Below, in pieces: positions 21,804 through 42,111 of a stretch of 42,111 nucleotides of DNA. Position numbers and translations under genes: made by a program. The stretch comes from Vreelandella andesensis (lineage in GTDB: Bacteria > Pseudomonadota > Gammaproteobacteria > Pseudomonadales > Halomonadaceae): the NCBI RefSeq assembly GCF_003989795.1, contig NZ_RZHG01000011.1, forward strand, positions 1-42,111, written 5' to 3'. The notes under the pieces were generated by a model, which saw nothing but the letters and a program-made list of their open reading frames with translations, did not search any database and had not been told where the DNA came from. The first letter of the stretch is position 1, and every line of letters starts with the position of its first letter.

Positions 21804-21884
21804 TTATTACCACTGCGTCCAATGAATCTGCCCCAATCGCGTTGTCAGCCGATAACTTACCAAAATGGTGAGAAAAGTGCGCGT

Positions 21885-21893
21885 TGGTATAAT
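21885..21893 (+). promoter_or_regulatory. Extended -10 promoter candidate for the capsule operon
   Basis: TGGTATAAT gives a perfect TATAAT with the TGn extension, about 120 nt before the kpsC start. No good -35 lies at the usual distance, which is acceptable for extended -10 promoters. This leaves a leader of about 110 nt. Confidence 0.5.
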
Positions 21894-21961
21894 TCAACGT
21901 GGTTGCCTTTTTAAGTTGTATCATTATGTAACAAAAAACTCTCTTACCGTAAGGCCACTTT

Positions 21962-21988
21962 AGGCTTAATTGATAAGCTAAGCCTTTT
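21962..21988 (+). terminator. Terminator-like leader hairpin (possible attenuator) before kpsC
   Basis: AGGCTTA (21,962-21,968) pairs with TAAGCCT (21,979-21,985), followed by TTT. A competing shorter hairpin (GCTTA 21,964-21,968 with TAAGC 21,974-21,978) uses part of the same sequence. It lies 25 nt before the first start codon of an operon that ends in an antiterminator gene. I found no copy of the E. coli ops motif (GGTAGC) in the leader. Function is inferred. Confidence 0.4.
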
Positions 21989-22013
21989 AACGTATGTTCG
22001 CCGCTTTAGTTGT

Positions 22014-24089
22014 TTGCGTTTATATTTACGCTTGATTTTGACACCATTCGGTTCTTTCATGGCAAAACTAATAGCAGGCTATACGTCTTACGGTATTACT
22101 AAAATCAATGCCCTTGCTTCTTTTTTGCCTGAATACTCGCATTTTTCACGCATAAGACCGCTCAGTCCTAAACCAAGTGCGATTATTGGATGGGGTCTTA
22201 AGCCCACGAGTGTTCGTGCACGACAATATGCCTCTCGTCATAACCTACCGTATGTCGCTCTAGAAGATGGCTTTCTTCGTTCTTTAGGACTAGGGGTTGA
22301 TGGCTACCAACCTCATAGCATGGTGGTCGATTATACGGGCATCTATTATGACGCTTCTCGACCTAGTGATTTAGAGAACTGGCTCAATCATGCCACATTT
22401 GATACTGAGGAGCTTGCCCAAGCAACACGCTGCATCGAGCAACTGTCGCGCTATCGCTTGTCGAAATATAATCACGCGCCCGATTATCTGTTGCCCATTG
22501 AAGGACAAAATAATGTCTTGGTAGTGGATCAAACCGCAGGCGATGCCTCTATTCACCACGGCGGCGCTAGTGCAGATAATTTTCGACAAATGTTAGCGTC
22601 CGCTTTAACTAACCACCCTGATACCAATGTTTTTATTAAGATACATCCTGACGTCATCGCAGGCAAAAAAAAGGGCCACCTGGTAGATGCCAATGAAAAT
22701 CCTCGCTGCCATATCATTAGCGATAACATTAACCCCTGGGCATTATTCGACAAAGTGCAGGCCGTTTATGTCGTGACAAGCCAGTTAGGGTTCGAAGCCC
22801 TAATGGCAGGCAAGCAAGTGCACTGCTTTGGCCTTCCCTTTTATGCAGGATGGGGATTAACACACGATCAGATTAGCTGTACGCGCAGAAGAGTCACACG
22901 ACTCCTAGAAGAAGTATTTGCCGCGGCTTATCTTCGTTATACCCGATATGCTAACCCCTACACGGGTAATGCCGCGACGCTAGAAGAAACGATTGCCCTG
23001 ATTGCCGATCAAAAGCGTCAGCAAGAACGCCTGCGTGGTGAATGGTTAGCCTGCGGTTTCTCATCCTGGAAAAGGCGATTCATTGGCCATTTTCTTGGAC
23101 CGGCAGCAAAGATTGCTTATCAAAAAGAGCTGCCAACCACTATTGCATCAGGTATTGAAAAACCAAATCTACTGGTGTGGTCCAGTCGTATTAACGATGA
23201 ATTTAAAGTCCGCCATCACAACCTAATGGCGGCGATATGGCGAATGGAGGACGGCTTTATCCGTTCAGTAGGGCTTGGGGTAGACCTCACTCAACCACTC
23301 TCTTTGGTCATTGATCGCCAAGGGATTTACTACGACCCCAGCCAGCCTAGTGAGCTAGAAACCCTGCTCAATACCGCTGATTTTAGCAATGACTTATTAG
23401 AGCGAGCAGCTCAACTACGCGAACGATTGGTAGCATTAAAGCTTTCCAAATATAATGTGCCGGGCAAAGAAACCATTGAATTACCCGCCAACAAACACAC
23501 TATTTTGGTGCCTGGTCAGGTAGAAAGCGACGCATCAATTGCCACAGGTTCGCCAGAAATCAGTACCAATAGCGCGCTTATAAAGGCCGTTCGAGATGCC
23601 AACCCGGATGCGTTTATTATTTATAAAGCACACCCAGACGTGATTACCGGTGCCCGTATTGGAGCACTCGATACCAACGCCAAACGCCTGTATGATCTTG
23701 ATGCTAGTCATGTCGATATCACCGTGCTGCTAGCTCACGTGGATGCGGTTCACACCATGAGTTCGCTCACTGGCTTTGAAGCCCTGCTTCGTCAATGCCA
23801 AGTACACACTTATGGCCTCCCGTTTTACGCAGGCTGGGGGTTAACCCTGGATGCCATGCACTGCCCGAGGCGAAATCGGAAGCTGCCACTGGATGCACTG
23901 GTCGCAGGAACCCTGCTTTTATACCCAAGCTATGTCGATCCCGGCTCTCGGCAACTGTGCAATGCTGAAACGGTAGTCAGCCTGCTGGAGCAGGCTAAAT
24001 CACAACAGTTTAAGTCTCGCAAACATATGCTTACATGGAAGCAGCGGCTATATCGCTGCTATCGTAACTTATTCATTGGAAGTCATTGA
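22014..24089 (+). CDS. kpsC: KpsC-like capsule lipid Kdo-transferase (two GT99-type halves)
   Basis: 691 residues from a TTG start; an ATG at 22,059 would give 676, nearer the usual 675. Neither has a good ribosome binding site. Two tandem homologous halves are clear: each has a WG/WS start (IIGWGLKP; LLVWSSRI), an EDGF(L/I)RS(L/V)GLGVD motif, a GIYYD(A/P)S(R/Q)PS block, an IKIHPDVI or YKAHPDVI motif, and FYAGWGLT. This is the dual-domain layout of KpsC, which with KpsS builds the beta-Kdo linker on a lipid for group 2 capsules. It is first in the operon, and its 3' end overlaps kpsS by 14 nt. Confidence 0.93.
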   Translation: MRLYLRLILTPFGSFMAKLIAGYTSYGITKINALASFLPEYSHFSRIRPLSPKPSAIIGWGLKPTSVRARQYASRHNLPYVALEDGFLRSLGLGVDGYQPHSMVVDYTGIYYDASRPSDLENWLNHATFDTEELAQATRCIEQLSRYRLSKYNHAPDYLLPIEGQNNVLVVDQTAGDASIHHGGASADNFRQMLASALTNHPDTNVFIKIHPDVIAGKKKGHLVDANENPRCHIISDNINPWALFDKVQAVYVVTSQLGFEALMAGKQVHCFGLPFYAGWGLTHDQISCTRRRVTRLLEEVFAAAYLRYTRYANPYTGNAATLEETIALIADQKRQQERLRGEWLACGFSSWKRRFIGHFLGPAAKIAYQKELPTTIASGIEKPNLLVWSSRINDEFKVRHHNLMAAIWRMEDGFIRSVGLGVDLTQPLSLVIDRQGIYYDPSQPSELETLLNTADFSNDLLERAAQLRERLVALKLSKYNVPGKETIELPANKHTILVPGQVESDASIATGSPEISTNSALIKAVRDANPDAFIIYKAHPDVITGARIGALDTNAKRLYDLDASHVDITVLLAHVDAVHTMSSLTGFEALLRQCQVHTYGLPFYAGWGLTLDAMHCPRRNRKLPLDALVAGTLLLYPSYVDPGSRQLCNAETVVSLLEQAKSQQFKSRKHMLTWKQRLYRCYRNLFIGSH

Positions 24090-25326
24090 GTTGAAGCAAA
24101 AGCGCGCGTTTTTATTTCTCCAAGGCGTCTGCTCGCCCTTTTATCAGCGTCTAGCCCGCCGGCTAACTGACGACGGCCACCGCGTGGTAAAAGTTAACTT
24201 CAACGCCGGCGATATCGTCTACTGGCAGCGCACTCACAGTCAGAACCATTTGTTTCGCGGCCCGTTAAGCGAGCTACCCGCTTATATCCAGTCGCTTTGG
24301 CAACGTTACGACATTACCGACCAAGTACTGTTTGGAGACCGCCGCCCGATTCACCGCCCAGCAGTTGACTTAGCGCCCGCCGCTGGCATTCGCACCCATG
24401 TATTTGAAGAAGGCTATTTTCGCCCTTTTTGGGTCACGCTTGAACGCGAAGGAGTGAATGGCCACTCGCTGCTACCCAGAGATCCCAAGTGGTTTTTCGA
24501 AACAGGCAAGGCATTGCCCAAATTACCTGCCCCTGTGCGCTTTCGTGCGTCATTCAAAATCCGCGCCGCACACGATATGGGTTACCACTTAGCAGGGTTA
24601 ATGAATCCGCTGGTGGCTCCTCATTACCGCAACCACGCGCCTATCACAGCGCCGGTCGAGTATGCGGGCTATGCCAAACGGTTCACCTTACTTCGCTTTT
24701 GGAAAAAGCGCGATAACGAACGAATTAAGAACCTGATCGAAGGCAGTAAGCCTTATTTTATGTTGCCGTTGCAGCTCAATACCGATGCGCAGATTCGTGA
24801 CCACTCACCTTATGCCAACATGGAAGAAGTGATGGATCACGTCATGGGGTCATTTGCTCTGCACGCTCCTAGCGACGCCTTACTGTGCATAAAAAATCAT
24901 CCTCTGGATATGGGGTTAGTTGACTACCCGAGCATCATTCAGCGGCTGGAAGATTTTTATGGTCTTAATGGGCGCATTGTTTACCTGGAGTCAGGCAACC
25001 TTAATCCGTTGCTCAAACATGCTACGGGCACGGTCACAGTCAACAGCACGGTCGGCATTGTTTCGCTTGAAAAACAGTGCCCCACCTTTGCACTCAGCGA
25101 CCCCATCTACAATTTAGCGGGCCTCACCTACGAAGGCTCTCTAGACGAGTTTTGGCACCAGCCGCCGCTGCCCAGCCAAGCGCTATTTAGCTATTTTCGT
25201 AATACCGTTATGTACGCCACGCAAGTTAATGGTGGTTTTTATTGCCAGCCCAGTATCGATTTAGCCGTCAACAATGCAGCAAGCATACTAGAAGCCTGCC
25301 CGTCGCCGTTGGAGAAGTTGCTGTGA
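24076..25326 (+). CDS. kpsS: KpsS/RkpJ-like capsule polysaccharide protein
   Basis: Up to 416 residues, starting at TTG 24,076 or TTG 24,091 inside the end of kpsC. It begins AFLFLQGVCSPFYQRLARRL, then has VFEEGYFRPFWVTLEREGVNG, YFMLPLQLNTDAQIRDHSPY, CIKNHPLD and TVNSTVGIVSLEKQCP. These match KpsS (and LipB and Sinorhizobium RkpJ), which in E. coli adds the first Kdo to lyso-phosphatidylglycerol. The enzyme acts at the inner face of the cytoplasmic membrane. The stop overlaps the SDR start (GTGA). The acceptor lipid may differ here; see the findings. Confidence 0.92.
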   Translation: MEVIELKQKRAFLFLQGVCSPFYQRLARRLTDDGHRVVKVNFNAGDIVYWQRTHSQNHLFRGPLSELPAYIQSLWQRYDITDQVLFGDRRPIHRPAVDLAPAAGIRTHVFEEGYFRPFWVTLEREGVNGHSLLPRDPKWFFETGKALPKLPAPVRFRASFKIRAAHDMGYHLAGLMNPLVAPHYRNHAPITAPVEYAGYAKRFTLLRFWKKRDNERIKNLIEGSKPYFMLPLQLNTDAQIRDHSPYANMEEVMDHVMGSFALHAPSDALLCIKNHPLDMGLVDYPSIIQRLEDFYGLNGRIVYLESGNLNPLLKHATGTVTVNSTVGIVSLEKQCPTFALSDPIYNLAGLTYEGSLDEFWHQPPLPSQALFSYFRNTVMYATQVNGGFYCQPSIDLAVNNAASILEACPSPLEKLL

Positions 25327-26147
25327 AAGTTGCTGTGAAAGCTGCTCGTGTGACTGCGCCATCACCTAGCGCCGCCGCCCCCCGCTGCGTGCTAATTACC
25401 GGCGCCACTGGCGCGATCGGTGGGGCGCTAGCCCATGCTTACGCAACCTCCACCACGCATCTGGTGCTGCACGGTCGTAATCGACAGTCGCTTGACGAAT
25501 TGGCGATAGCGTGTCGAGAAAAAGGCGCGCATGTGTCGCTCTCGACGGCTAGCTTAACCGACGAAACCGAGCTAAATGCGTGGCTGGATATGCTCTGCAC
25601 TGAGCATGTACCCGATATCGTGATTGCCAATGCGGGTATCAACACGCACCCAGGTGAAAACACACTAGAGCCGTGGGACGAGGTTCAAGCACTATTAGAT
25701 ATTAATTTAAAAGTACCCATCGCAATGGCCCAGCGCCTTGTGCCAGCCATGCAAGCACGGGGCAGCGGTCAGTTGGTGTTCATTAGCTCGTTAGCAGGCT
25801 GGCACGGCTTACCTACAACGCCTAGCTACAGTGCCAGCAAAGCAGGCATTAAAGCCTACGGCGAAGGTCTCAGAGGGCTACTTGAGCCTCATGGAATTGG
25901 CGTGACCGTGGTAATGCCTGGCTACGTTACTTCACCCATGTGTAACGCAATGCCCGGCCCCAAGCCTTGGGAATGGTCACCAGAGCGCGCCGCTAACGCC
26001 ATACAGCGCGGCATTACCGCTAACCGTGCCCGCATCAGCTTCCCCTTTCCATTGAACTTCGGCACTTGGTGGCTAGCTGTTTTACCAGCTGGCATTTCAC
26101 AATGGCTCGTCAAACGCCTTGGCTTTAATCATACCGAGGGGGCGTAG
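25323..26147 (+). CDS. rkpH: RkpH-like short-chain dehydrogenase, likely 3-ketoacyl/ketosphinganine-type reductase
   Basis: 274 residues from GTG 25,323, chosen because it overlaps the kpsS stop by four bases. A tandem 12-bp duplication offers a second GTG at 25,335. Motifs are TGATGAIGG (26-34), NAG (IANAGINTHP), S156, Y169-x3-K173 (YSASK), so the catalytic set is complete. The C-terminal hydrophobic end (FGTWWLAVLPAGISQWLVK) suggests membrane contact, as in 3-ketodihydrosphingosine reductases. The operon position beside an oxoamine synthase suggests that it reduces the ketone that enzyme makes. Substrate is inferred; rkpH of Sinorhizobium is the likely counterpart. Confidence 0.8.
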   Translation: MKVAVKAARVTAPSPSAAAPRCVLITGATGAIGGALAHAYATSTTHLVLHGRNRQSLDELAIACREKGAHVSLSTASLTDETELNAWLDMLCTEHVPDIVIANAGINTHPGENTLEPWDEVQALLDINLKVPIAMAQRLVPAMQARGSGQLVFISSLAGWHGLPTTPSYSASKAGIKAYGEGLRGLLEPHGIGVTVVMPGYVTSPMCNAMPGPKPWEWSPERAANAIQRGITANRARISFPFPLNFGTWWLAVLPAGISQWLVKRLGFNHTEGA

Positions 26148-26148
26148 C

Positions 26149-27783
26149 GTGCCGCTTTTTCTGTCTTCCTCTTTCATTAGCCCGCTGTTAGTAGGCTTGT
26201 TAGCCAGCCTATTGTTCGAAGCGCTGCTAAACCCGCGTCCCCGCCCGCCTTGGAAGCGCGGCATTGCCGCTAACATTGTGCATGTTGGTAGCTGGTTGCT
26301 GCTGTTTGGCATTTTTATACTGCTTCTACAACGCCCTTGGTTTGCTATTGTCTTCGTTCTATCGCTGCAACTGGTGGTGGTGCAATCGAGTAATACCAAA
26401 TCACGCACGTTGAACGAACCTTTTATCTGCCACGATTTTGAATACTTTTGGGATGCAGTGCTGCACCCACGCCTCTATGTGCCTTTTTTCGGTATTGGTC
26501 TCGCCATTGCTGCCAGCAGTGCCGGCGCGGTTGCTATTGGCAGCTTTTTGTTTTTTGAACCATCGCTAATCCGACAATGGGGCGCCGCAACGTTTCTAGT
26601 TCACAGCCTAGCGCTGATAGTCACCGGCGCGCTGTTCGTTTGGCTGGGGTGGCGTAAACTGCCGCCTATCACGCTTACCCCTGTCATTGACCTAGAACGT
26701 CTGGGGTTATTCTCCAGCCTCTGGGCATACGGCATCGCCCTACTGCAATCGCAGCCGCCTAAAGCTGACGCCTCGCCTTTCTATTCATATACTCAACACA
26801 GCCTTGAGCAAGATGCTCAAGCGGCACTGCCCAACGTGGTATTGGTGCAAAGTGAATCATTTTTTGATCCTCGCCCATGGTGCGGCGAGATTGCCGCTGA
26901 CTTACTGCCGAATTATGATGCTACTTGCAGGGAAGCTATCGTGAAGGGAGCGCTGAATGTGCCCGCGTGGGGCGCAAATACAGTGCGAACCGAATGCGCC
27001 GTTTTAACCGGCATAGCGCCTGATGCGTGGGGGCCGCGCCAGTTCAACCCTTACCGCACGCTGTCGAGTCACCCTTTGCCCAGCATTGCCAGTGCATTTA
27101 AAGCTCAAGGGTATCGAACGATTTGTGTTCATCCTTACCCTGCTACTTTCTATATGCGAGACAGCGTTATTCCGGCATTGGGTTTTGAGACGTTTATCGA
27201 CATTAGCGCCTTCGAAAGTCAGGATAAGCATGGTCAGTACATGGGTGACCAGGCTGTTGCACGAAAAGTTGGACGCCTGCTTGAAGATAACGATAATAGG
27301 CCACTGTTTGTCTTTGTGATTACCATGGAAAACCATGGTCCTTTACACTTAGAAGCACCCGACAAGGCCGGAGTAGCGTCAACATTGCCAGCAGCGCCGT
27401 GGCCGCTGCCCGATTATTTGCGTGATTTAGCCGTATACCTGCACCATCTAGGCGAATCAGATAAAATGCTCAAAAGCGTAAAAGCAGCGCTAAACTCAGC
27501 TAGTAGACCAGGGCTGCTGGGCTGGTACGGTGACCACGTACCCATACTGCCTGCCGCCTACAGGCATTATTCACCGCCTGCTAGCAGCACCCCGTACATG
27601 ATATGGTCAACGGAAATTGAACGTCGTTTAGATGGTAACTTGCATGACAAACCGCCTATTGAGTGCGAGTCGTGCCCGCTGGAAGCAAACGAACTTGGTG
27701 TCTACCTATTTAAACAAGCGTTTGGACGCGATATAAGTAGCGATGTGATCAAGGCAGAACCAGAACCTCAGGAGCAAGAATGA
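26149..27783 (+). CDS. rkpI: LTA-synthase-like membrane phosphotransferase (sulfatase fold), RkpI-like
   Basis: 544 residues from GTG 26,149, one base after the SDR stop; an upstream TTG at 26,119 would add ten. About five membrane helices fill residues 3-167. An extracytoplasmic sulfatase-fold domain follows: metal site E236 (SESFFDPR), nucleophile T278 in GANTVRTE, H396 in MENHGP, and D462-H463 in YGDHVP. This matches the LtaS/OpgB group, which moves phosphoglycerol or similar groups from phospholipids onto glycans or lipids at the outer face of the inner membrane. In a capsule operon it could decorate the polymer or add a head group to the anchor lipid. Equivalence to rkpI is by position, not proven. 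Confidence 0.8.
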   Translation: MPLFLSSSFISPLLVGLLASLLFEALLNPRPRPPWKRGIAANIVHVGSWLLLFGIFILLLQRPWFAIVFVLSLQLVVVQSSNTKSRTLNEPFICHDFEYFWDAVLHPRLYVPFFGIGLAIAASSAGAVAIGSFLFFEPSLIRQWGAATFLVHSLALIVTGALFVWLGWRKLPPITLTPVIDLERLGLFSSLWAYGIALLQSQPPKADASPFYSYTQHSLEQDAQAALPNVVLVQSESFFDPRPWCGEIAADLLPNYDATCREAIVKGALNVPAWGANTVRTECAVLTGIAPDAWGPRQFNPYRTLSSHPLPSIASAFKAQGYRTICVHPYPATFYMRDSVIPALGFETFIDISAFESQDKHGQYMGDQAVARKVGRLLEDNDNRPLFVFVITMENHGPLHLEAPDKAGVASTLPAAPWPLPDYLRDLAVYLHHLGESDKMLKSVKAALNSASRPGLLGWYGDHVPILPAAYRHYSPPASSTPYMIWSTEIERRLDGNLHDKPPIECESCPLEANELGVYLFKQAFGRDISSDVIKAEPEPQEQE

Positions 27784-30700
27784 CTAAACGCGTTGCCATC
27801 ATCGGCGCCGCCCATCGTTTCCCCGGCACCACACCTGAAACGTTCTGGCAGGACCTGCAAGCCGAAAAAGACCTCGTCACTCAAGTGGCCCCCGACCGCT
27901 GGAGCCAGGAAGCTTTCTGGCATCCAGATAAACGCCATCCTGGCACCAGCGTCACGTTTGCCGCGGGTAGCCTAGGCGATATCAGCGGGTTCGACGCAGC
28001 GTTTTTTGGCATTTCGCCCCGTGAAGCGGCGAACATGGATCCACAACAGCGCATGTTGCTAGAGCTTACCTGGGAAGCCATGGAAAGCGCGGGCATCGTG
28101 CCCAGCACCCTCCGTGGCAGCCAATGCGGTGTTTTCCTTGGCGTCGCCAGCCTGGATTATTCCTATCGCCTGGCCGATGACATGTCGGCGATTGATGCCT
28201 CTACTGCGACCGGTAACACATCAAGTATCGCGTCTAACCGGCTGTCTTACGTCTTTGATCTGCATGGTCCCAGCATGTCGCTGGACACCGCCTGCTCGTC
28301 TTCCATGGTGGCATTCCACCAAGCGTGCCAATCCATTCGCAGCGGCGAAACTAACATGGCGCTGGCGGGTGGCATCAGCCTGCACCTGCACCCGTATGGC
28401 TTTATTATTTTTTCGAAGGCCAGCATGCTCTCACCCACTGGGCGCTGCCAAGTCTTCGATGAAGCCGGTAATGGCTACGTGCGCTCAGAAGGTGCTGGGC
28501 TGTTTTTGCTTAAAGACTATGATCAAGCCGTGGCCGATGGCGATAATATCCTCGCAATTGTCGCAGGCTCGGCGGTCAATACTGACGGCCACAAATCTGG
28601 CCTTACCGTGCCTAACCCCAGCGCGCAAATAGAGTTAATGCGCCGCGCCTACGAACAGGCGGGCATTACGCCAGATGAGATCGACTACCTTGAAGCGCAC
28701 GGCACCGGCACCGCCGTTGGCGACCCCATTGAAACCCGTGCCATTGGCGAAGCACTCGGCAAGCACCGCAAAACGCCGCTGCTGATTGGCTCGGTGAAAA
28801 GTAACCTTGGCCATTTAGAAACCGCCTCTGGGGTGGCTGGGCTCGCTAAGGCGCTGTACAGCCTGCAGCACCGTGAAGTGCCCGCGACGATCGGCATACG
28901 TAATCTTAATCCTCGCATCAAATTCGATGAGTGGAATATCAGCGTTGTCACCAAAGCCAAGGCGCTTAAAAAGCAGGGCCGCTTGGTCATTGGCATCAAC
29001 TCTTTCGGCTTTGGCGGCGCCAATGCGCACGTCATACTGGAAAGTGCGCCAGAAAAAACGCCGAGTCCTCGTCAAGTACCAGATACGGCGCTGCCCATTC
29101 GCGTTAGCGCGCGAAGCCAAGAAGCATTGGCAGATAACGCTCGTGGATTAGCGAACCTCCTACGCGAAGAAAGCCACGCGTTCTATGACATTGCCCATAC
29201 ATTGAACAGCCATCATGAACAGCACACGTACGGTGCGCTCTGTTTTGCTCAAACACCGCAAGCCGCCGCCAGTGCACTCAGCCAGTTTGCCGACGGTGAA
29301 GCCAACGACGTTGTAACACTGGAGCGCTTAGCGAATGCACGTGGCCCTGTGTTCGTTTACGACGGCAACGGCTGCCAATGGGAAACCATGGGCCACGACT
29401 TACTAGAGAGCGAACCAGCGTTCAGCGAGGCCATTGACCGCGTAGATGCGCTGTTCCAAAAACATGGCGATTTTTCGCTGCGTGACGAGCTGGCAGGCCG
29501 AAACCGACCAGAGGCCAGCGGAGGCCGCTTTGACCGCACTGAAATCGCTCAACCTGCCTTGTTTGCGCTGCAGGTAGCGTTGACGGAATGGCTGAAATCG
29601 AAGGATATTGTGCCCACTGCCGTCTTTGGCCACAGCGTTGGTGAAGTGGCTGCCGCATGGGCGTCCGGCGCGCTAACGTTAGAAGATGCGGTAAAAGTCA
29701 TCTACTACCGCAGTTTCTATCAAGGCAAAACCCGTGGCCTCGGGGAAATGACGGCCGTCGCCATGAGCGCGGAAGAGATCGCGCCCTGGCTTGAAAAACC
29801 TGAATTTAGTGACATCAGCTTAGCGGGTATTAATAGTCCCAAAGGCATCACCTTAGCGGGTGACCGTGACCAACTAAACGCTATTGAAACAGCCTTTAGT
29901 GAACAGAGTACCTTTGCTAAGCGACTGCCCTTGGATTACGCCTTCCACAGCCCCGCCATGGACAGTATCAAAGCAGGCGTTGTGGAAGCATTGGCGGACA
30001 TCTGCCCACGCCCCACGCAAATCCCTTATATATCTACTGTTACGGGCACCATCAGTGAAGGCACCCAGCTGGATGCTAATTACTGGTGGCTCAATATTCG
30101 GGAACCGGTTCTGTTTGATAGCGCCGCCACGGTGTTGATTGAACAGGGGTATAACGTGTTTGTGGAAGTCGGCGCCCACCCTATCCTGCGCCGCTACCTT
30201 AACGAGTCACTGCACCAACAAGAGCGCAGCGGATTGGTGCTGGGCACTATTGAACGCAATCTGCCTGGCGTAGACGGCTTAACGCGCTGCCTTGGCCAAT
30301 TGTTGCTAAGCGGACTCACCCTGGATAGCCACCAGTTCTTCCCGGTGGAAGGCCAGCGGGTTCCGCTGCCACGCTATGCATGGCAACGCACCCAGCTTTG
30401 GGTGCAAGGCACCAACGATGGCCAGGGGCTGCTTTCCCGTTACTACCAGCATCCGCTACTGGGATACCCACTGGCGCAGCAGGATCACACCTGGGAGAGT
30501 CAGCTAGATACCAAACGCCAGCCATGGCTAGCAGATCACGTTGTCGGTGAAGGGGCGGTCTTCCCCGGTGCCGGGTTTGTTGAGCTGACGCTAGCGGCAG
30601 CCCTGCAGCAGAAAGACACACCGCTTTTAGACATTGAAGAGCTAGAGATCCGTGCCCCGCTGCTGCTGGATGGCCCCAATGGCCGCACCATGCGCTTAAC

Positions 30701-33700
30701 ACTGGATCCAGATGATGGTCGCTTAGCAATCCACTCCCGTGAACCGGCTACCGGCAGTGAGTGGCAACTAAATGCTGTTGCCCGCCGCATGCGTGAAAGC
30801 CGAGGCTTCTTGCTTAATCGCAAAGCGCCCAGCCTGCCAAGCCGTGCACCCGACTACACCTTGGCTGAGCACGTGCAGATGGCCGAGCGCATTGGGCTGC
30901 ACTACGGCCCTGCGTTCCAAGCCATTAGCCGTGGCTGGATTGAAGGCGACAGCGTCATCGGTGAAATCACGCTCTCCGAGAGTATTCAGGCACAGCTCGA
31001 CACGCTGCACGTTCACCCTGGAATTCTCGACAGTGCTTTCCAAATGTTCATACCGCTGCTGGCTCAACATAGCGAGTTTGCAGCGCAGTTAGCGTTTGTG
31101 CCGGTTCGTGTGGGACGCATTCAAGTGAATGCCGACGCCGGTGCCCCCGTGTTGGCACGGGCACTGATGGGCAAACGCGCGCCCCACTCTTTCACCGCCG
31201 ACTTCGAACTGTATGATGCGGCCGGCAACGCCGTGGCGGTGCTCAGCGAAACCCGCTTCAAGGCGATTCGCTTAAACCGCGCCCATCATCAGCACTTCAG
31301 CTACCTGGATGTTGAATTAACGCCTGCCCCGCTGACCGCAGCAACGCTACCGTTGGCTGGCAATGCCCTTGTGCAATTGGTTGGGCTAAGCAATGCCTTT
31401 GCCGACAGCACCGGCCAACGCTATGCACAAGAAGTGTCGCCACTGCTCGATAGCCTTAGCGAAGCTTTTGCTGGTGCCAATGATAACGACAGCGAAGATC
31501 AGCCCGCACCTGAAACCATTTGGCAATTACTGGTGCAGGATTACCCCGATTATTTTGCGCCTATTCACATAGTAGGCCGATTAGGTCTGCACCGTGGGCA
31601 ACTAGCAAGCGGCAGTGAAACACTTGAAAGCTTAGGCATTACCAATGAGCACTTGGCGGGCATTAATCGCGTCCTGATCGGCGAAAACGGCTGGCAAGTG
31701 CTAGCGGCTGAGCTTGGCGCGCTGGTGGAAGCCTCGCTAACCACCCTGCCCGTTGGTCAGCGGCTGCAATTGTTGGAAGCGGGGCCCTGCGCCCCCGCTC
31801 TCGGTCAGCGCCTACTTGAACAGCTTGCGAATACAGCAAACATTGCAAACGATGCGCACCATTATCGTGCCATCACCACCAGCGACACCGCTCGCCATCA
31901 GGCTGAACAGCTTCAAGAGCGTTTCCCGCTGATAGATGTTCAGCCGCTGGAAGATACGTTACCTGCGCTTGGCAATGCAGAGAAAGCTCAGCTGGCATTT
32001 ATCAGCGTGGATGTGACCCAGCCTGAACGCACTCGCCAACTGATTGAAACGCTGCCTACCCAGCTTGCCCCAGGTGCTCACGTCGTGGTGATCGGCGTTC
32101 ACCCCAGTCGCTGGCTGGATGATTTGTTGGCCACACCAGGCATCGACCAAGCGCCCCTTGAACAAGATACCCTGCGTGAGTGGTTATCGAACCAGGGCCT
32201 CAGCGTTTCGCCGCCGGTCGAGCTTGAAGAAAATGGCGCTTACCTGCTGCATGGCCAATACACAGCAGATGAAGAGTTACCGCGTCAAAATGCTCAAAAT
32301 TCGTCAGATGCCCTGCACCTGATCGTCGCTGACGCAGAACACGAAGCCCTCGCCACTCAGCTTGCAGAGCGGCTAGACCCGACCAACGCATGGCTAACCG
32401 TCAGTGACGCGTCCCCGCAGGCGCTGTTAACGACAGCGCTGGAAGAACGCCAAGCAGCACCTGCCGAGCTGAATGTTGTTGATCTGCGTGGGCTTAATGG
32501 CAGCACCACTGCTGCTCAAACCCAGCGTTGCTACACAGCACAGCAGTGGTCGTTAGCACTTGAAGCAAGCGGGCTGGAAAGCCAAGGCAGCCACGTTACC
32601 CTTTGGCTGACGACCCAGAATGCCAGTACCGGCGATGACGCTGCGCTATGGGGCTTTGGCCGTTCGCTTGCCAATGAAGCCGTTGGCCATAGCGTCACAC
32701 TGATTGATCTACCAGACAGCCCCAGCAAAGCGGCACTAAACGCGTTGGCAGCCTCAATAGCCACACCGGATAGCGAAAACGAACTGGTCATCACCGTTGA
32801 CGGCGAACGGTTTGCGACGCGTCTTCGCACCCTGCCTGCGCCTCACCCGGTGGCGCAAGCAAGTGCTGCGCCTCATCAAGCAATGACCCTGGGCTTCGCG
32901 CTACCAGGGCAATTGCGTCAGTTGCAGTGGCGGCCACGACCGTTGCCTGAACTTGGCGCGGATGAGGTGGAAATCTGTGTTAAAGCGACGGGCCTCAACT
33001 TCCGCGATGTGATGTATACCCTTGGCTTACTGTCTGATGAAGCGATTGAAAACGGTTTCGCTGGCCCGACCCTGGGGCTTGAGTTCTCAGGTGAGGTTCT
33101 CGCGGTAGGTGCCAATGTTCAGCACGTCACCCCCGGCCAAGCGGTGGTAGGCTTTGGCCCTGCCAGCTTTAGCGACCGGCTGATTGCCAGCCAGCATGCC
33201 GTTGCGCCGCTGCCTGAAGGCGTCAGCTATGCTGCTGCCGCGACAATCCCGACCACCTTCTTCACGGTTTACTACGCGCTAAAACACCTTGCGCGCCTGG
33301 AACCCGGTGAGAAAGTATTGATTCACGGTGCCGCGGGCGGCGTCGGCATCGCCGCGCTGCAAATTGCCCAGTGGCTAGGTGCCGAGATCTACGCCACGGT
33401 GGGGTCTGAAGAGAAGCGCGACTTCCTGCGTCTTATGGGGGAAGAGCGCATCTACGACTCCCGCTCACTGACGTTTGCCGAAGAGATCCTAGAGGACACT
33501 CAAGGCGAAGGCGTGGACGTCGTATTGAACTCTCTGGCAGGCGAAGCGATTAACCAAAACCTGCGCGCATTGCGCCCATTTGGCCGCTTCCTGGAATTAG
33601 GCAAACGTGATTTCTATGAAAACACGCACATCGGTCTACGCCCGTTCCGCAACAATTTAAGCTACTTCGGCATCGACTCCGACCAGTTGATGAAAGTACA

Positions 33701-35105
33701 GCCTGCGCTCACTCAACGCTTGTTCGGTGAAATGATGGCGCTGTTTAACGATGGCACGCTCAGCCCGCTGCCGTTCACCGCCTTCAGCCACAGCCAAGTG
33801 ATTGACGCCTTCCGTTATATGCAGCAAGCACGCCAAATCGGCAAAGTGGTGGTGACCTATGAACAGCCCATTGTGCCGCCGCATAACGAGCTGTTAGGCA
33901 CCGGTGCCATAACGCTATCTGCCGATGCCAGCTATTTGGTGACCGGCGGACTAGGCGGCTTTGGCCTCAAAACGGCCCAATGGCTGGTCAGCAAAGGCGC
34001 ATGCCAGCTTGTCTTGTTAAGCCGTAGTGGCCCCGCTAGTGAAGAAGCTCAAGCCGCTATCGCGACGCTCGAAGCCCAAGGCGTGAAGGTGCTGGCAGCG
34101 GCGTGTGACATTACCGATCACGCGGCACTAGCAAGCGTTATGGCGCGCGTTCAGAACGAACTCAGCCCGCTTCGCGGCATCGTGCATGCCGCAACGGTGA
34201 TCGACGACGGCCTGATTCGCAACCTAGATGCCGAACGTATCCAAAAGGTGCTGGCTCCTAAAATTGATGGTGCCCGTCATCTGGATGCGCTTACCCAGGA
34301 CATCTCACTCGACTTCTTTGTGCTCTACTCCTCGGCGACCACGCTGTTTGGTAACCCAGGGCAGGCCAACTACGTTGCCGCTAACCACTGGCTGGAAGCC
34401 TTTGCTGCCCGCCGTCGCGCGGCGGGCCTACCCGCCACGTGCGTACGCTGGGGAGCCATTGAAGATGTCGGCTTCCTGGCGCGTAACACGCGCACACGCG
34501 ATGCGCTGCAAGAGCGCTTAGGGGGGTCGGCACTCCATTCGGATGACGCTCTCAATGTGCTCGAGCAAATGTTGCTGACCCCTGGCCCAAGCTTGGGAGT
34601 TCTTGAACTCGAGTGGGGCGCCCTGGCGCGCTTCTTGCCCACGGCCCAAGCGCCACGCTTTAACGAAATTGCGCGCGTTAGCGATGATGATGCTAGCGTC
34701 GACCACGATGACGATATCAGCGCACTACTGGCAGATCTTTCGCCTGAAGAGTTGCATAGCACCATCACCGACCTTCTGCGTGCCGAGCTGGCTAGCATCC
34801 TGCTGATTGATGAAGAGAAAATCGACATCAATCGCTCGGTGTACGATATGGGCTTTGATTCGCTCATGGGCGTCGAATTGATGACCGCCATCGAGAACCG
34901 CTTAAACGTGCAAGTACCGGTAATGGTGCTAAGCGAAGCGTCAACGTTAAACAAACTGGCCGGTGTGCTGATTCAAAAGTTACATCAGCATGACAATGAT
35001 GTTGAAGAAGCGCCACAAGATGCGTTAGCCTCTCTGGCCGCTCGCCACGGGGCAGATGGGCTAACCAGTGAGTCTGCCTCAACATCTACGACCGAGATAC
35101 CATGA
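27780..35105 (+). CDS. rkpA: RkpA-like fully reducing type I FAS/PKS megasynthase
   Basis: 2441 residues. Domains: KS (1-430; C172 in DTACSSS, H307, H345). AT (about 530-820; S619 in GHSVGE, H723 in YAFHS, which suggests malonyl). DH (about 880-1150; H920 in HVVGEGAVFP, D1084). A methyltransferase-like region (about 1250-1450) whose SAM motif is degraded to EAGPCAP. A structural KR half (ALWGFGRSLANE). ER (about 1690-2000; NADPH loop HGAAGGVG near 1850). KR (2050-2250; S2185, Y2198). ACP (S2361 in GFDSLMG). No thioesterase. It should make a saturated or hydroxylated acyl chain iteratively. The ATGA overlap with both neighbours and an AGGAG site show tight coupling. Confidence 0.93.
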   Translation: MTKRVAIIGAAHRFPGTTPETFWQDLQAEKDLVTQVAPDRWSQEAFWHPDKRHPGTSVTFAAGSLGDISGFDAAFFGISPREAANMDPQQRMLLELTWEAMESAGIVPSTLRGSQCGVFLGVASLDYSYRLADDMSAIDASTATGNTSSIASNRLSYVFDLHGPSMSLDTACSSSMVAFHQACQSIRSGETNMALAGGISLHLHPYGFIIFSKASMLSPTGRCQVFDEAGNGYVRSEGAGLFLLKDYDQAVADGDNILAIVAGSAVNTDGHKSGLTVPNPSAQIELMRRAYEQAGITPDEIDYLEAHGTGTAVGDPIETRAIGEALGKHRKTPLLIGSVKSNLGHLETASGVAGLAKALYSLQHREVPATIGIRNLNPRIKFDEWNISVVTKAKALKKQGRLVIGINSFGFGGANAHVILESAPEKTPSPRQVPDTALPIRVSARSQEALADNARGLANLLREESHAFYDIAHTLNSHHEQHTYGALCFAQTPQAAASALSQFADGEANDVVTLERLANARGPVFVYDGNGCQWETMGHDLLESEPAFSEAIDRVDALFQKHGDFSLRDELAGRNRPEASGGRFDRTEIAQPALFALQVALTEWLKSKDIVPTAVFGHSVGEVAAAWASGALTLEDAVKVIYYRSFYQGKTRGLGEMTAVAMSAEEIAPWLEKPEFSDISLAGINSPKGITLAGDRDQLNAIETAFSEQSTFAKRLPLDYAFHSPAMDSIKAGVVEALADICPRPTQIPYISTVTGTISEGTQLDANYWWLNIREPVLFDSAATVLIEQGYNVFVEVGAHPILRRYLNESLHQQERSGLVLGTIERNLPGVDGLTRCLGQLLLSGLTLDSHQFFPVEGQRVPLPRYAWQRTQLWVQGTNDGQGLLSRYYQHPLLGYPLAQQDHTWESQLDTKRQPWLADHVVGEGAVFPGAGFVELTLAAALQQKDTPLLDIEELEIRAPLLLDGPNGRTMRLTLDPDDGRLAIHSREPATGSEWQLNAVARRMRESRGFLLNRKAPSLPSRAPDYTLAEHVQMAERIGLHYGPAFQAISRGWIEGDSVIGEITLSESIQAQLDTLHVHPGILDSAFQMFIPLLAQHSEFAAQLAFVPVRVGRIQVNADAGAPVLARALMGKRAPHSFTADFELYDAAGNAVAVLSETRFKAIRLNRAHHQHFSYLDVELTPAPLTAATLPLAGNALVQLVGLSNAFADSTGQRYAQEVSPLLDSLSEAFAGANDNDSEDQPAPETIWQLLVQDYPDYFAPIHIVGRLGLHRGQLASGSETLESLGITNEHLAGINRVLIGENGWQVLAAELGALVEASLTTLPVGQRLQLLEAGPCAPALGQRLLEQLANTANIANDAHHYRAITTSDTARHQAEQLQERFPLIDVQPLEDTLPALGNAEKAQLAFISVDVTQPERTRQLIETLPTQLAPGAHVVVIGVHPSRWLDDLLATPGIDQAPLEQDTLREWLSNQGLSVSPPVELEENGAYLLHGQYTADEELPRQNAQNSSDALHLIVADAEHEALATQLAERLDPTNAWLTVSDASPQALLTTALEERQAAPAELNVVDLRGLNGSTTAAQTQRCYTAQQWSLALEASGLESQGSHVTLWLTTQNASTGDDAALWGFGRSLANEAVGHSVTLIDLPDSPSKAALNALAASIATPDSENELVITVDGERFATRLRTLPAPHPVAQASAAPHQAMTLGFALPGQLRQLQWRPRPLPELGADEVEICVKATGLNFRDVMYTLGLLSDEAIENGFAGPTLGLEFSGEVLAVGANVQHVTPGQAVVGFGPASFSDRLIASQHAVAPLPEGVSYAAAATIPTTFFTVYYALKHLARLEPGEKVLIHGAAGGVGIAALQIAQWLGAEIYATVGSEEKRDFLRLMGEERIYDSRSLTFAEEILEDTQGEGVDVVLNSLAGEAINQNLRALRPFGRFLELGKRDFYENTHIGLRPFRNNLSYFGIDSDQLMKVQPALTQRLFGEMMALFNDGTLSPLPFTAFSHSQVIDAFRYMQQARQIGKVVVTYEQPIVPPHNELLGTGAITLSADASYLVTGGLGGFGLKTAQWLVSKGACQLVLLSRSGPASEEAQAAIATLEAQGVKVLAAACDITDHAALASVMARVQNELSPLRGIVHAATVIDDGLIRNLDAERIQKVLAPKIDGARHLDALTQDISLDFFVLYSSATTLFGNPGQANYVAANHWLEAFAARRRAAGLPATCVRWGAIEDVGFLARNTRTRDALQERLGGSALHSDDALNVLEQMLLTPGPSLGVLELEWGALARFLPTAQAPRFNEIARVSDDDASVDHDDDISALLADLSPEELHSTITDLLRAELASILLIDEEKIDINRSVYDMGFDSLMGVELMTAIENRLNVQVPVMVLSEASTLNKLAGVLIQKLHQHDNDVEEAPQDALASLAARHGADGLTSESASTSTTEIP

Positions 35106-36436
35106 CCGTAAAGCGCTCTGAACTGAAACAACAGCTGCTGGAACAGGCACGCAAGCGCCCCACTCCGCGTGCTGCCAGCTCGCAAGCCCTGGCATCCGCA
35201 GGGGCAGAATCAACGCGGCGAGTTCCCGAGCGCTTTACACGTTTTGATGCCCATCCTGGCTATCAGCAACTCGTGATGATGCGTCAAGGTGCCAAACAAC
35301 TCGGGCTGATTGACCCGTTTTTTAAAGTTCATGATGGCCTGGCCGGCGCCACGAGTATGATTGACGGACAATCCTGTATCAATTTCGCCAGCTACAATTA
35401 CCTGGGTTATTCCGGTGACCCACGGGTCATTCAAGCGGCGTGCGATGCCGCTTCTCACTACGGAACCTCTGTGTCTGCCAGCCGGGTTGTATCGGGCGAG
35501 CGACCAATTCACGGTGAATTAGAGCAAGCGATCGCTAGCACCTATGGCGTTGAAGATGCGGTTGTTTTTGTCAGCGGACACGCAACAAATGTGTCGACTC
35601 TTGGGTACCTATTAGGCCCAAAAGATCTTGTGCTTCACGACGAGTACATCCACAACAGCTCGTTAGTGGGCGCTCAGCTTTCCGGCGCTAAGCGCATGTC
35701 CTTTAGCCATAACGACCCCGACGCACTGGACGCCTTGTTAAGTCGTCATCGCCATCAATTCGAACGCGTGCTTGTTGTCATCGAAGGGCTTTACAGCATG
35801 GATGGTGATATACCTGACCTTCCCCGCTTTGTTGAGCTAAAACAGCGCCATCAGGCATGGCTAATGGTGGATGAAGCGCATTCGTTTGGCGTAATGGGCG
35901 ACACTGGCTTAGGCTTAAGGGAACATTTTGCGGTTGACCCAACCGATGTTGATATCTGGATGGGCACCATGAGCAAAACGCTATCAGGCTGCGGGGGCTA
36001 TATTGCCGGTAATAAAGCCCTGGTGGAAACGCTGCGCCACTTCGCGCCGGGCTTTCTGTATAGCGTCGGCATGCCCGCTCAAGTGGCTGCGCCCTCGCTT
36101 AAAATTCTGGAATTAATGCCCCAGGAAACCGAGCGCGTTGTCCAGTTACAAGCTATCTCGCGCTATTTCTTAGCGCAGGCGCAAGCACGAGGAATGGATA
36201 CAGGCCACAGTATTGGCTCTGCCGTTGTGCCCGTTATTGTTGGAAGCTCACCGCTTGCAGCGCATTTGTCCCATGCACTGCTTGAACAGAACATTAATGT
36301 CCAACCCATTCTGTATCCCGCGGTGCCTGAAAAAAGTGCCCGGCTTCGCTTTTTCCTTTCCTGTGAGCACACGAAAGCCCACATCGACCAAACGCTGGAT
36401 GCACTCGCACTACTGCTCGCAAACGCCAAAGGGTGA
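35102..36436 (+). CDS. rkpG: Alpha-oxoamine synthase (AONS/SPT-like), RkpG-like
   Basis: 444 residues, PLP fold type I. An N-terminal extension of about 60 residues precedes the core: NFASYNYLGYSGDP, SRVVSGERPIHGELE, HDEYIHNSSLVGAQLSG, VVIEGLYSMDGDIPDLP, DEAHSFGVMGDTGLG and the Schiff-base lysine K292 in TMSKTLSGCGGYIAG. The family (8-amino-7-oxononanoate synthase, serine palmitoyltransferase, ALA synthase) condenses an acyl thioester with an amino acid, losing CO2. Placed directly after a megasynthase without thioesterase, it is the natural chain-release enzyme. Its amino acid partner (serine, glycine or alanine) is unknown. Biotin synthesis is unlikely because no bio gene is nearby. Confidence 0.9.
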   Translation: MTVKRSELKQQLLEQARKRPTPRAASSQALASAGAESTRRVPERFTRFDAHPGYQQLVMMRQGAKQLGLIDPFFKVHDGLAGATSMIDGQSCINFASYNYLGYSGDPRVIQAACDAASHYGTSVSASRVVSGERPIHGELEQAIASTYGVEDAVVFVSGHATNVSTLGYLLGPKDLVLHDEYIHNSSLVGAQLSGAKRMSFSHNDPDALDALLSRHRHQFERVLVVIEGLYSMDGDIPDLPRFVELKQRHQAWLMVDEAHSFGVMGDTGLGLREHFAVDPTDVDIWMGTMSKTLSGCGGYIAGNKALVETLRHFAPGFLYSVGMPAQVAAPSLKILELMPQETERVVQLQAISRYFLAQAQARGMDTGHSIGSAVVPVIVGSSPLAAHLSHALLEQNINVQPILYPAVPEKSARLRFFLSCEHTKAHIDQTLDALALLLANAKG

Positions 36437-36439
36437 TAT

Positions 36440-36961
36440 ATGGAGGAGCTTGAAACTCAAGCAGAATGGATTAACCCCTGCTGGTATGTGATTCAATGTA
36501 AAGGCGGCGAGTCATTTCGCGCCGCTGAACACCTCACCAACCAAGGGTACGAGGTGTTCCACCCCGTCTTAAGCACCAAACGTAAGCGCCAAGGCAAACC
36601 CACCGTGGTAACCGAGCCACTTTTCCCCTACTACCTGTTTATCCGGCTGGATCAGGTTGTCAGCAACTGGCGGCCTATTCGCTCTACCCGTGGCGTACTG
36701 CGCCTGCTTACCTTCGGCAACACCCCTATCGCCGTGCCAGATGCCTTGGTAGATACCCTACGCGCACAACCACACCATCTGGAAGGCAGCCACAGCTACT
36801 TCAGCGCGGGAGAAAAAGTGACGATCACCGATGGGCCTTTCAAAGATTTAGAAGCCGTTTTTAAACGCTGCAAAGGCGAAGAGCGCGCTATCGTGTTGCT
36901 TAACGTGCTACAACGCCCACAGGATGTCGAAATATCTGTCGACAGCTTACAAAAAAACTAA
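36440..36961 (+). CDS. rfaH: RfaH/NusG-like transcription antiterminator
   Basis: 173 residues. The NGN domain fills about 12-110: CWYVIQCKGGESFRAAEHL, GYEVFHPVLSTKRKRQGKP and PLFPYYLFIRLD are typical of RfaH rather than of NusG. The C-terminal KOW domain follows (FSAGEKVTITDGPFKDLEAVF, then RAIVLLNVLQRPQDVEIS). RfaH proteins load on RNA polymerase at ops sites and keep long surface-polysaccharide operons transcribed. It is the last gene of this 15-kb operon, 3 nt after rkpG, with AAGGGTG before the ATG. It probably controls its own operon; the leader hairpin before kpsC is a candidate target. Confidence 0.88.
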   Translation: MEELETQAEWINPCWYVIQCKGGESFRAAEHLTNQGYEVFHPVLSTKRKRQGKPTVVTEPLFPYYLFIRLDQVVSNWRPIRSTRGVLRLLTFGNTPIAVPDALVDTLRAQPHHLEGSHSYFSAGEKVTITDGPFKDLEAVFKRCKGEERAIVLLNVLQRPQDVEISVDSLQKN

Positions 36962-41800: not shown

Positions 41801-42111
41801 CGCGACATTGATTGTGCCGTTCAACGTGGTGCTGCCCACGCTATCGAGATCAAGGCTACCCCCAACGCCCAGCAATCCGCTGGTTGTCACATCAGCGCCG
41901 CCGTTGATCGTGGCATTGCCACTGACCGTGACGCTATCTGCCAGGGTAATGGCATCCGTACCGTCGATCAGCAGATCGTTGGTCACGTCCAGTGAGCCTT
42001 TTAGATCCGTGGTGCCATCGACCGCCAGCGTGACGTTATCGCCGCCGGTGTAAGAAGCGATGATGGCGAGATCGCCACCCACTGCCAAGTTAGAGAGACC
42101 CGCGACATTGA
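38828..42111 (-). CDS. Giant repetitive surface protein, C-terminal part (cut by the window edge)
   Basis: About 1,090 residues visible; the N terminus is outside the window. The first 740 or so residues are beta-strand repeats of 99-100 residues rich in G, D, T, V and N (GGDNVTL, LDVTNDLLI, GAITLAD), resembling beta-helix adhesins and haemagglutinin-type exoproteins. The last 350 or so residues are unique, less repetitive and acidic, ending FIEDDEMVF. That end does not alternate like an outer-membrane barrel strand, so an autotransporter is unlikely. The tolC-like gene downstream suggests type I secretion with a C-terminal signal, but no RTX nonapeptides are visible. Role inferred: cell-surface adhesion or biofilm matrix. 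Confidence 0.75.
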   Translation of the reverse strand, partial: NVAGLSNLAVGGDLAIIASYTGGDNVTLAVDGTTDLKGSLDVTNDLLIDGTDAITLADSVTVSGNATINGGADVTTSGLLGVGGSLDLDSVGSTTLNGTINVAGLSNLAVGSDLAITGDVTGGDNVTLMVAGITDLNGSLDVINDLLLNSSGAITLADSVSVSGNAKIDGGTDVATSGLLEVGGSLDLDSVGNTTLNGTVNVAGVSDLAVGGNFTITGDVIGGDDVTLMVAGFTALGGALDVTNDLLIDGKGAITLADNATVGGTATIKGNSSVNIGGTLDVSSLDLYSVGNTALNGTVTVAGLFDLAAGGDLAITGDITGGDNVTLAVDGTTDLEGSLDVTNDLLIDGTGAITLADNATIGGTATIKGNSSVNIGGTLDVGSLDLYSVGNTALNGTVTVAGVSDLAVGGDFTITGDVIGGDNVTLTVAGFTALGGALDVTNDLLIVGTGAITLADNVTVGGAATIKGNSSVNVGGTLNVGSLDLYSVGNTALNGTVIVAGLFDLAAGGDLAITGDVTGGDNVTLTVVGSTALDGRLNVINDLMIDGTDAITLADNVTVNGNATINGGTDVTASGLLKVGGNLDLNSVSNTTLNGTVNVAGISDLNVGKNLVITGSYSGGDNVTLTVAGITDLDGSLDVTNDLLIEGTGAITLADSVTVRGNATINGGSSVNVDGTLDVGRFDLDSVGNTTLSGMINVAGLSDLVVGGVLTITGDVTGAGNVTLTAASDMVLGGRIEASDRLRLNSGGRVVQQVGSSGLLDASRLDILAASGVGSSLQALDIAVDTLLMNVAKGDVFINQKANTPLTLVSGTFAGDVTLTARGDLRVGTLLAEQGRVSLTSINGRLLGSDVASGVNIKAGSLVVNANGLRLTDDQNDRLSETLVTLLPNLLKVDVTRVEVLASDGRLLNIIADGNGYLLEARGAESDLYLSLVGNRANLAALNPISLTVERYEIQRLSAVMAEIGDGRDGTLAETPFIEPRSMSERMTAPNGLSSWLRDRIAAASHDSINDGTNYEGGMRLEQLVRQDMFGHSKGDRDNFFSRYQMPGYGLTGNGLSSVLGRVAGLQPQVTGEFDHYNPYLYDVFIEDDEMVF
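39890..42111 (-). repeat. About seven 297-300 bp coding repeats of the surface protein
   Basis: The ITLAD motif recurs seven times. Two repeat types alternate in blocks: one with GNSSVN-GGTLDV (99 residues; three consecutive copies at about 40,680-41,570 spaced exactly 297 bp) and one with GG-DV-SGLL-VGGSLDLDSV (about 100 residues) on both sides. Confidence 0.85.

Follow-up and report, generated by a model that had tools for sequence, protein, structure and literature searches.

A capsule operon of Vreelandella andesensis with putative sphinganine-synthesis genes, and a KpsS type that follows such genes across genomes

On what lipid is a capsule built when the capsule genes stand in one operon with a lipid-synthesis line of their own? 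The question is raised by a stretch of 42,111 bases from Vreelandella andesensis (NZ_RZHG01000011.1; hereafter the window), a complete contig of its genome (C3), in which kpsC, kpsS, a short-chain dehydrogenase/reductase (SDR), a lipoteichoic acid (LTA)-synthase-like gene, a polyketide synthase (PKS), an alpha-oxoamine synthase (AONS) and rfaH form one compact plus-strand operon (~22059-36961; from open reading frames (ORFs), Pfam and NCBIfam). We consider it moderately probable that this operon makes a very-long-chain sphinganine, likely capped with phosphoglycerol, and that this look-alike of lyso-phosphatidylglycerol (lyso-PG) is the acceptor for the 3-deoxy-D-manno-octulosonic acid (Kdo) linker laid down by KpsS and KpsC for a capsule exported by an ATP-binding cassette (ABC) transporter. 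Central to this reading is the observation that KpsS comes in two types that follow the lipid genes, whereas KpsC does not. The seven genes are as follows.

22059..24089, plus strand: kpsC, dual beta-Kdo transferase, linker extension (PF05159, 310 bits; Capsule_synth in three stretches)
24076..25326, plus strand: kpsS, beta-Kdo transferase for the first residue, lipid-gene-associated type, rkpJ-like by position (PF05159, 264 bits; trees)
25350..26147, plus strand: SDR, predicted 3-ketosphinganine reductase, rkpH/wcbP/sgaC-like (PF00106; TG...GG and YSASK motifs; 50% identity to the Pseudomonas SDR at the sgaC position)
26119..27783, plus strand: LTA-synthase/GacH-like membrane protein, rkpI/wcbQ-like, predicted phosphoglycerol transferase (PF00884; GacH 5u9z and LtaP 4uop; motifs)
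27780..35105, plus strand: iterative type I PKS/fatty acid synthase (FAS), rkpA/wcbR/sgaA-like (Pfam domains; catalytic motifs; 49% full-length identity to the Pseudomonas sgaA-type PKS)
35102..36436, plus strand: AONS, predicted serine-using serine palmitoyltransferase (SPT), rkpG/wcbT/sgaB-like (NCBIfam; SPT chains 3a2b and 8guh; 60% identity to the Pseudomonas sgaB-type protein)
36440..36961, plus strand: rfaH, transcription antiterminator (TIGR01955 above its cut-off)

What lipid would such genes make? By Pfam, the PKS (2441 amino acids (aa)) has the domain order ketosynthase, acyltransferase, dehydratase, enoylreductase, ketoreductase and acyl carrier protein (KS-AT-DH-ER-KR-ACP) and lacks a thioesterase. 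Active-site motifs of all six domains were found, together with the pyridoxal phosphate lysine of the AONS (SKTL) and the YSASK of the SDR. Because its reductive loop is complete and there is no thioesterase, the PKS would build a saturated acyl chain held on its own ACP; the AONS would free this chain by decarboxylative condensation with L-serine, and the SDR would reduce the 3-keto group. Fusion of PKS and AONS in a single 2622-aa frame in genome G520 fits direct transfer from ACP to AONS. In Pseudomonas fluorescens MYb115, the iterative PKS SgaA and SgaB are both required for C24, C26 and C28 sphinganines, purified PfSgaB condenses acyl-CoA with L-serine in vitro (near-exclusively over alanine and glycine), and SgaC, an SDR, is the proposed ketone reductase (PMC12134224, 2025). 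The closest solved chains to the window's AONS are the two SPTs listed above; the SDR has no sequence relative in the PDB at E <= 1e-28. A BioF assignment for the AONS was rejected (341.1 bits against a TIGR00858 cut-off of 426.45, and a position within a PKS operon), as was a Caulobacter-type sphingolipid pathway, the operon having no separate ACP or acyl-ACP synthetase gene. The preliminary description of this DNA had proposed a route from acyl-ACP and an amino acid via an aminoketone to a sphingoid-like amino alcohol serving as capsule anchor or primer. As far as sequence can speak to it, a sphingoid product is well supported, strongly if indirectly, by homology to the characterised SgaABC pathway with its use of L-serine and by the behaviour of KpsS; the anchor role is the part that we infer.

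If the acceptor of the capsule is unusual, where should this be visible? KpsS acts first, adding Kdo to phospholipid, and KpsC then extends (PMC10148158); a different acceptor should thus mean a different KpsS, while KpsC need not differ. Our class sample agrees with this expectation, in that KpsS is 41-79% identical to the window's KpsS in six other genomes with the AONS and 31-38% identical in eight of nine genomes without it (the exception, G314, is at 50%). We placed 56 KpsS from 54 genomes on a tree, including those of 16 class-sample genomes whose KpsS match is strong. Some genomes belong to both the class and the phylum sample, and 17 of the 58 phylum-sample genomes with PF05159 at E <= 1e-40 lie outside the analysis (16 of them in family f223). 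Presence of the AONS takes 3 changes on this tree, against 17 for shuffles. KpsC was extracted for 40 of the 54 genomes (three of the KpsC rows cover less than half the alignment columns, and that of G666 sits on a long branch). In these 40 matched genomes the labels LTA-like, AONS, and either in the genome take 2, 3 and 1 changes on the KpsS tree and 6, 7 and 6 on the KpsC tree, with about 13 for shuffles of the last label, and a single clade for the 17 KpsC in question was rejected (approximately unbiased (AU) test, p 3e-83). The lipid ('R') type of KpsS was named after the tree had been seen; the LTA-like and AONS labels are independent of the tree. A further 30 KpsS, picked for nearness to this AONS and placed by a quick tree method, all fell on the predicted side (30/30; branch support 86 by the Shimodaira-Hasegawa-like approximate likelihood ratio test, SH-aLRT). 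Ten of these came from Pseudomonas and 20 from named loci, of which at least 80 were found by AONS, many ending at contig ends; 22 have a KpsS match, and from 20 a KpsS with 300 or more positions was obtained. No sequence relative of KpsS was found in the PDB at E <= 1e-3.

The gene that best tracks the KpsS type is the LTA-like gene, to which the preliminary description assigned no role. At E <= 1e-27 it is present in 20 of the 23 genomes with lipid-type KpsS and in none of the 31 others, three of which have a match near 1e-9. The best solved relatives of its product, GacH and LtaP, are phosphoglycerol transferases, and the active-site motifs QSESFFD, NTVRTE and YGDH of the window protein align to both; by strict patterns, 21 LTA-like homologues have YGDH/FGDH in 21 cases, QSESFxD in 13 and NT..TE in 7. 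The protein does not score as an LtaS equivalog (23.2 of 970 bits). MYb115 also has +154 Da species that were assigned as phosphoglycerol-sphingolipids (PMC12134224). We suggest that the LTA-like enzyme likely supplies the phosphoglycerol head of such lipids: it would move glycerol phosphate from PG onto a sphinganine hydroxyl, giving a sphinganine-phosphoglycerol that is predicted to be lyso-PG-shaped.

Do the sphinganine genes of Pseudomonas also lie among capsule genes? Two genera of the Pseudomonas family have SgaB-type genes, one in 1 of 25 genomes and the other in 12 of 278, and in ten of these 13 genomes kpsC, kpsS, SDR and the LTA-like gene follow within 15 kb of the AONS, convergent to it. 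In genome G957 the AONS is followed by kpsC and part of an LTA-like gene, without kpsS and SDR, and the contig of G920 stops 0.9 kb past the AONS. Several Ensifer and Rhizobium loci read PKS-AONS-SDR-LTA-KpsS. Among the 80 named loci listed for the AONS, the flank examined includes a PKS match in 67, on the AONS strand in 66 of them. The gene order after the AONS in locus L216 is PhyH, KpsC-like, GNAT, LTA-like and SDR, and the fifth place of the SDR matches the spacing of the MYb115 locus tags from sgaB (RS19800) to sgaC (RS19775). Five of the 13 Pseudomonas loci contain the published 3' primer site of MYb115 sgaA with 1-3 mismatches, and a sixth, G762, contains it with 2. Judging by these other Pseudomonas loci and the MYb115 locus tags, it is very probable that the sphingolipid genes published for MYb115 belong to a capsule locus. 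The terms 'capsul', 'kps' and 'polysaccharide' are absent from the main text of PMC12134224, and we found no publication tying these sphingolipids to capsule, most subscription papers being outside the reach of the search. That the PKS serves a free natural product only was rejected on the kps neighbours and the co-variation of KpsS. The three genes between the LTA-like and sgaB-type genes of L216 (12811-16664) encode a GNAT acetyltransferase, another KpsC-like protein (the second of the locus) and a PhyH dioxygenase, for which tailoring of the sphingoid amine and chain is possible.

A number of observations weigh against a sphinganine-phosphoglycerol acceptor, and each is given here with any alternative that it favours. 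The AONS falls under every NCBIfam SPT cut-off (282.1/640, 272.6/500 and 203.4/670 bits), as does the Pseudomonas sgaB-type protein. The phosphoglycerol lipids of MYb115 were assigned by exact mass, and they did not rise alongside sphinganine (PMC12134224). A count of positive charges in the loops of the LTA-like protein is ambiguous as to the side that they face. Its solved relatives are extracytoplasmic enzymes and its own active site may be periplasmic, whereas KpsS works in the cytoplasm; the closest of these relatives, GacH, decorates a polysaccharide. A flip step may be needed between the LTA-like enzyme and KpsS. The location of the solved relatives and the activity of GacH would suit a scheme in which KpsS glycosylates sphinganine directly and the LTA-like enzyme adds glycerol phosphate to the exported polysaccharide in the periplasm, which we regard as unlikely, if still to be reckoned with. 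Such a task is suggested by Cobetia marina, of the Halomonadaceae, whose capsule has glycerol phosphate on mannose (Man-6-P-glycerol) and whose authors link WcbQ to this transfer (PMC11766843). Against it, the LTA-like gene (E <= 1e-27) is found with lipid-type KpsS in genomes of several classes and in none of the 31 others, a distribution that speaks for a tie to the acceptor rather than to a single polymer. MYb115, moreover, is of a genus with the same locus and makes the lipids assigned as phosphoglycerol-sphingolipids.

Other contrary points come from exceptions to the co-occurrence. This AONS is missing from four genomes with lipid-type KpsS and an LTA-like gene (G314, G652, G666 and G676; loci L045, L087, L091 and L092), the best match in G314 being only 34% identical and the other three having none at E <= 1e-80; these must have another lipid source. 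Three more (G612, G615 and G518) have AONS and KpsS without an LTA-like match at E <= 1e-8. Five genomes have the PKS-AONS pair but no KpsS match, namely G289 and G306 (at E <= 1e-3) and G673, G377 and G520 (at E <= 1e-40); at the thresholds used, G289, G377 and G520 are also without the LTA-like gene, which G306 and G673 have. In Pseudomonas G771, the 17 kb examined downstream yielded no kps match. Together, these six genomes imply that the lipid has uses besides capsule. Cases with PKS-AONS but no KpsS match would be expected if, in the manner of E. coli, ordinary (lyso-)PG anchored the capsule and the sphingolipid were a separate membrane lipid or secondary metabolite, its genes merely lying in the locus and aiding retention or export. 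Consistent with this, a phospholipid is the reported anchor of the capsular polysaccharide (KPS) of S. meliloti 1021 (cited in PMC7902896, PMC7694667), and the MYb115 lipids are regarded as secondary metabolites (PMC12134224). We nevertheless judge this alternative improbable: it does not predict that KpsS, rather than KpsC, tracks the lipid genes, and the rkp-1 region of rhizobia is described as helping to make a lipid carrier for secretion (PMC4881576, PMC3557214). Sphinganine-phosphoglycerol would itself count as a phospholipid anchor of the kind reported for S. meliloti 1021.

Finally, the branch parting the two types of KpsS has middling support (93/81 on the 56-KpsS tree, narrowly missing the star of the tree program, and SH-aLRT 86 on the later tree), and only 2 columns separate them at a 70% threshold and 0 at 80% (0 and 0 for the KpsC control). 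With so few discriminating columns, and with genes of one locus often co-inherited, the split could have some other cause, such as a different linker sugar or transporter, the lipid genes hitchhiking in the locus. We think this very improbable, as KpsC, which has the same linker and mostly the same locus, is not split likewise, and the AONS co-occurs even where it is apart from kpsS (on other contigs in G332 and G158, ~29 kb away in G363).

How would a capsule started on sphinganine-phosphoglycerol leave the cell? By analogy with E. coli, the lipid-type KpsS would start the linker, KpsC would extend it and KpsMTED would export the product. The export half, kpsD-kpsM-kpsE-kpsT, is on contig C20, followed by rmlB/D/A-type (deoxythymidine diphosphate (dTDP)-rhamnose-type) genes; here Poly_export, ABC2_membrane and ABC_tran genes flank one for a KpsE-like protein, which at 271.9 bits falls short of the TIGR01010 cut-off (437.5). 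With PF05159 in both KpsC and KpsS, and KpsD, M, E and T in the genome, the parts of a group 2 (ABC-transporter) capsule are present, although the window's KpsS stays below the NF050054 equivalog cut-off (263.7 bits against 600). RfaH scores 170.2 bits (TIGR01955 cut-off, 144.5). The sequence GGCGGTAGCGTG, which we take to be the RfaH ops element, has four exact sites in the genome vs one for a reversed control, and two of the four lie ~0.3-0.5 kb upstream of the genome's two Poly_export genes, on contigs C19 (G000:C19:41605) and C20 (G000:C20:104258; about 10258 of L054). No ops-like site was found ahead of kpsC itself (21701-22100 scanned). The RfaH of the lipid operon may therefore couple anchor supply to distant export, its ops-like sites linking expression of the two operons.

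As to the anatomy of the operon, the preliminary description had seven plus-strand genes with touching or overlapping ends at 21885..36961; all seven genes and the end of the span stand, but 21885 is ~170 bases ahead of kpsC. The mechanical ORF of kpsC runs from 22014, with a likely ATG at 22059 and the stop at 24089. The start of the SDR is approximate: its mechanical ORF begins at 25242, and because the adh_short domain begins only at residue 49 the true start is probably near 25350. The PKS starts 4 bases within the LTA-like stop, the AONS 4 bases within the PKS stop, and RfaH 3 bases beyond the AONS end. Scans for promoters and terminators gave 13 and 19 sites, vs shuffle means of 10.8 and 18.2. 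Nearest to the AONS, among the best 120 of 7997 homologues, are proteins of Halomonas and Vreelandella (<=93% identical), and since the same arrangement recurs in relatives it is not due to chance. Elsewhere in the window, a gene for a large repeat protein, beside an OEP (TolC-type) gene, contains a 297-base tandem array (7.1 copies; 39985-42111) that extends to the end of the contig, and this repeat probably broke the assembly there; a group II intron domain match (RF02001, 84.8 bits) lies at 14474-14662 on the minus strand.

What would it mean if the sphinganine-phosphoglycerol reading were right? We regard as evenly balanced the wider proposal of a second chemical class of Gram-negative capsule, primed and anchored on a dedicated very-long-chain sphinganine-phosphoglycerol that mimics lyso-PG and is made locally by a PKS, a serine-using oxoamine synthase (AOS), an SDR and a phosphoglycerol transferase, with a KpsS lineage of its own, in Halomonas, Pseudomonas, Rhizobium/Ensifer, Bordetella and others, with the 'protective sphingolipids' of Pseudomonas as its intermediates. 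The identity of the rkp-1/wcb lipid has been a question since the 1990s, and there would then be one answer for rhizobial symbionts, halophiles and many Betaproteobacteria. The LTA-like gene would gain a task, the existence of two types of KpsS but not of KpsC would be explained, and the host-active sphingolipids of Pseudomonas would be predicted to be capsule-anchor intermediates. Such a reading joins capsule priming with PKS-derived bacterial sphingolipids, two literatures that, as far as we surveyed them, do not refer to each other; the available text of a 2025 review of capsule attachment (PMC12220298) has no word starting 'sphing'.

How, then, does the operon compare with known systems? 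It has the marks of the rkp-1/wcb kind: a reducing PKS/FAS of one module that includes an ACP and lacks a thioesterase, beside an AONS, together with SDR, LTA-like gene and KpsS. Five protein kinds are common to it and rkp-1 of Sinorhizobium (rkpA, G, H, I, J), as the preliminary description had said, and Ensifer loci L140, L142 and L147, with the order PKS-AONS-SDR-LTA-like-KpsS, agree, several Rhizobium loci being alike. The window differs from rkp-1 in its order, kpsC-kpsS-SDR-LTA-PKS-AONS, with kpsC inside the operon, rfaH after it and kpsD/M/E/T on another contig. The rkp-1 genes have long been proposed to act in synthesis, modification or transport of a lipid carrier for KPS (PMC4881576, PMC3557214), and the wcbR/rkpA PKS have been handled as one group (PMC3908369). 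The same protein kinds make up the wcb operon (wcbPQRT) of Cobetia, Halomonas piscis and Burkholderia; that of Cobetia marina is annotated as a lipid-carrier operon next to kpsSC (PMC11766843), and wcbR and wcbQ are listed with kpsC, kpsD and kpsS in Halomonas piscis (PMC10752968). The window operon is thus a wcb/rkp-1-type capsule-lipid operon, a kind of cluster already described, including in the Halomonadaceae, so that what was put forward as new in a halophile, a sphingolipid-like capsule anchor, keeps its novelty for the sphingolipid idea but not for the operon.

Some relatives carry additional genes that the window operon is without. In seven of the 80 named loci, PKS and AONS are separated by a gene for an LpxC-like deacetylase (L145, L152, L157-L160 and L165; Burkholderia-type, from Burkholderia, Paraburkholderia, Cupriavidus, Ralstonia and Pandoraea), as they are in G673, and such a gene is near the LTA-like gene in G306 (coordinates in L098, 9442-10380, and L033, 19181-19999); this enzyme may process a sugar-bearing or N-acyl lipid. 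A formyltransferase-like gene is found near AONS or SDR in several lineages (L031, 11738-12523; L033, 17764-18612, Formyl_trans_N; L066, 7690-8523; likewise in L076, L077, L086, L105, L143, L146, L168 and L196). The two copies scored are both far under the Fmt cut-off, and N-formylation of the lipid amine is a candidate function. Planctomycete loci L155, L173, L178, L180, L183, L188, L190 and L195 have a relative of the AONS, but the flank examined, short in some of them, gave no match to PKS, kps or LTA-like genes; the enzyme perhaps has another use there.

SgaABC of MYb115 comprises a PKS, a serine-using AOS and an SDR of the same families as in the window; the PKS-AONS pair and the kps genes of Pseudomonas are transcribed towards each other, and the MYb115 cluster was published as a secondary-metabolite cluster. 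KpsC, KpsS and the export genes are common to the window's genome and the E. coli group 2 capsule, which is not known to have lipid genes of its own. In E. coli the lipid is (lyso-)PG (PMC10148158). The window's KpsS is of the other type. In fungal clusters for sphinganine analogues, the chain is released by an oxoamine synthase. The fungal fumonisin and sphingofungin clusters likewise yield PKS-derived, sphingoid-like products with keto reduction by an SDR (cited in PMC12134224), but these are free metabolites, not tied to a polysaccharide.

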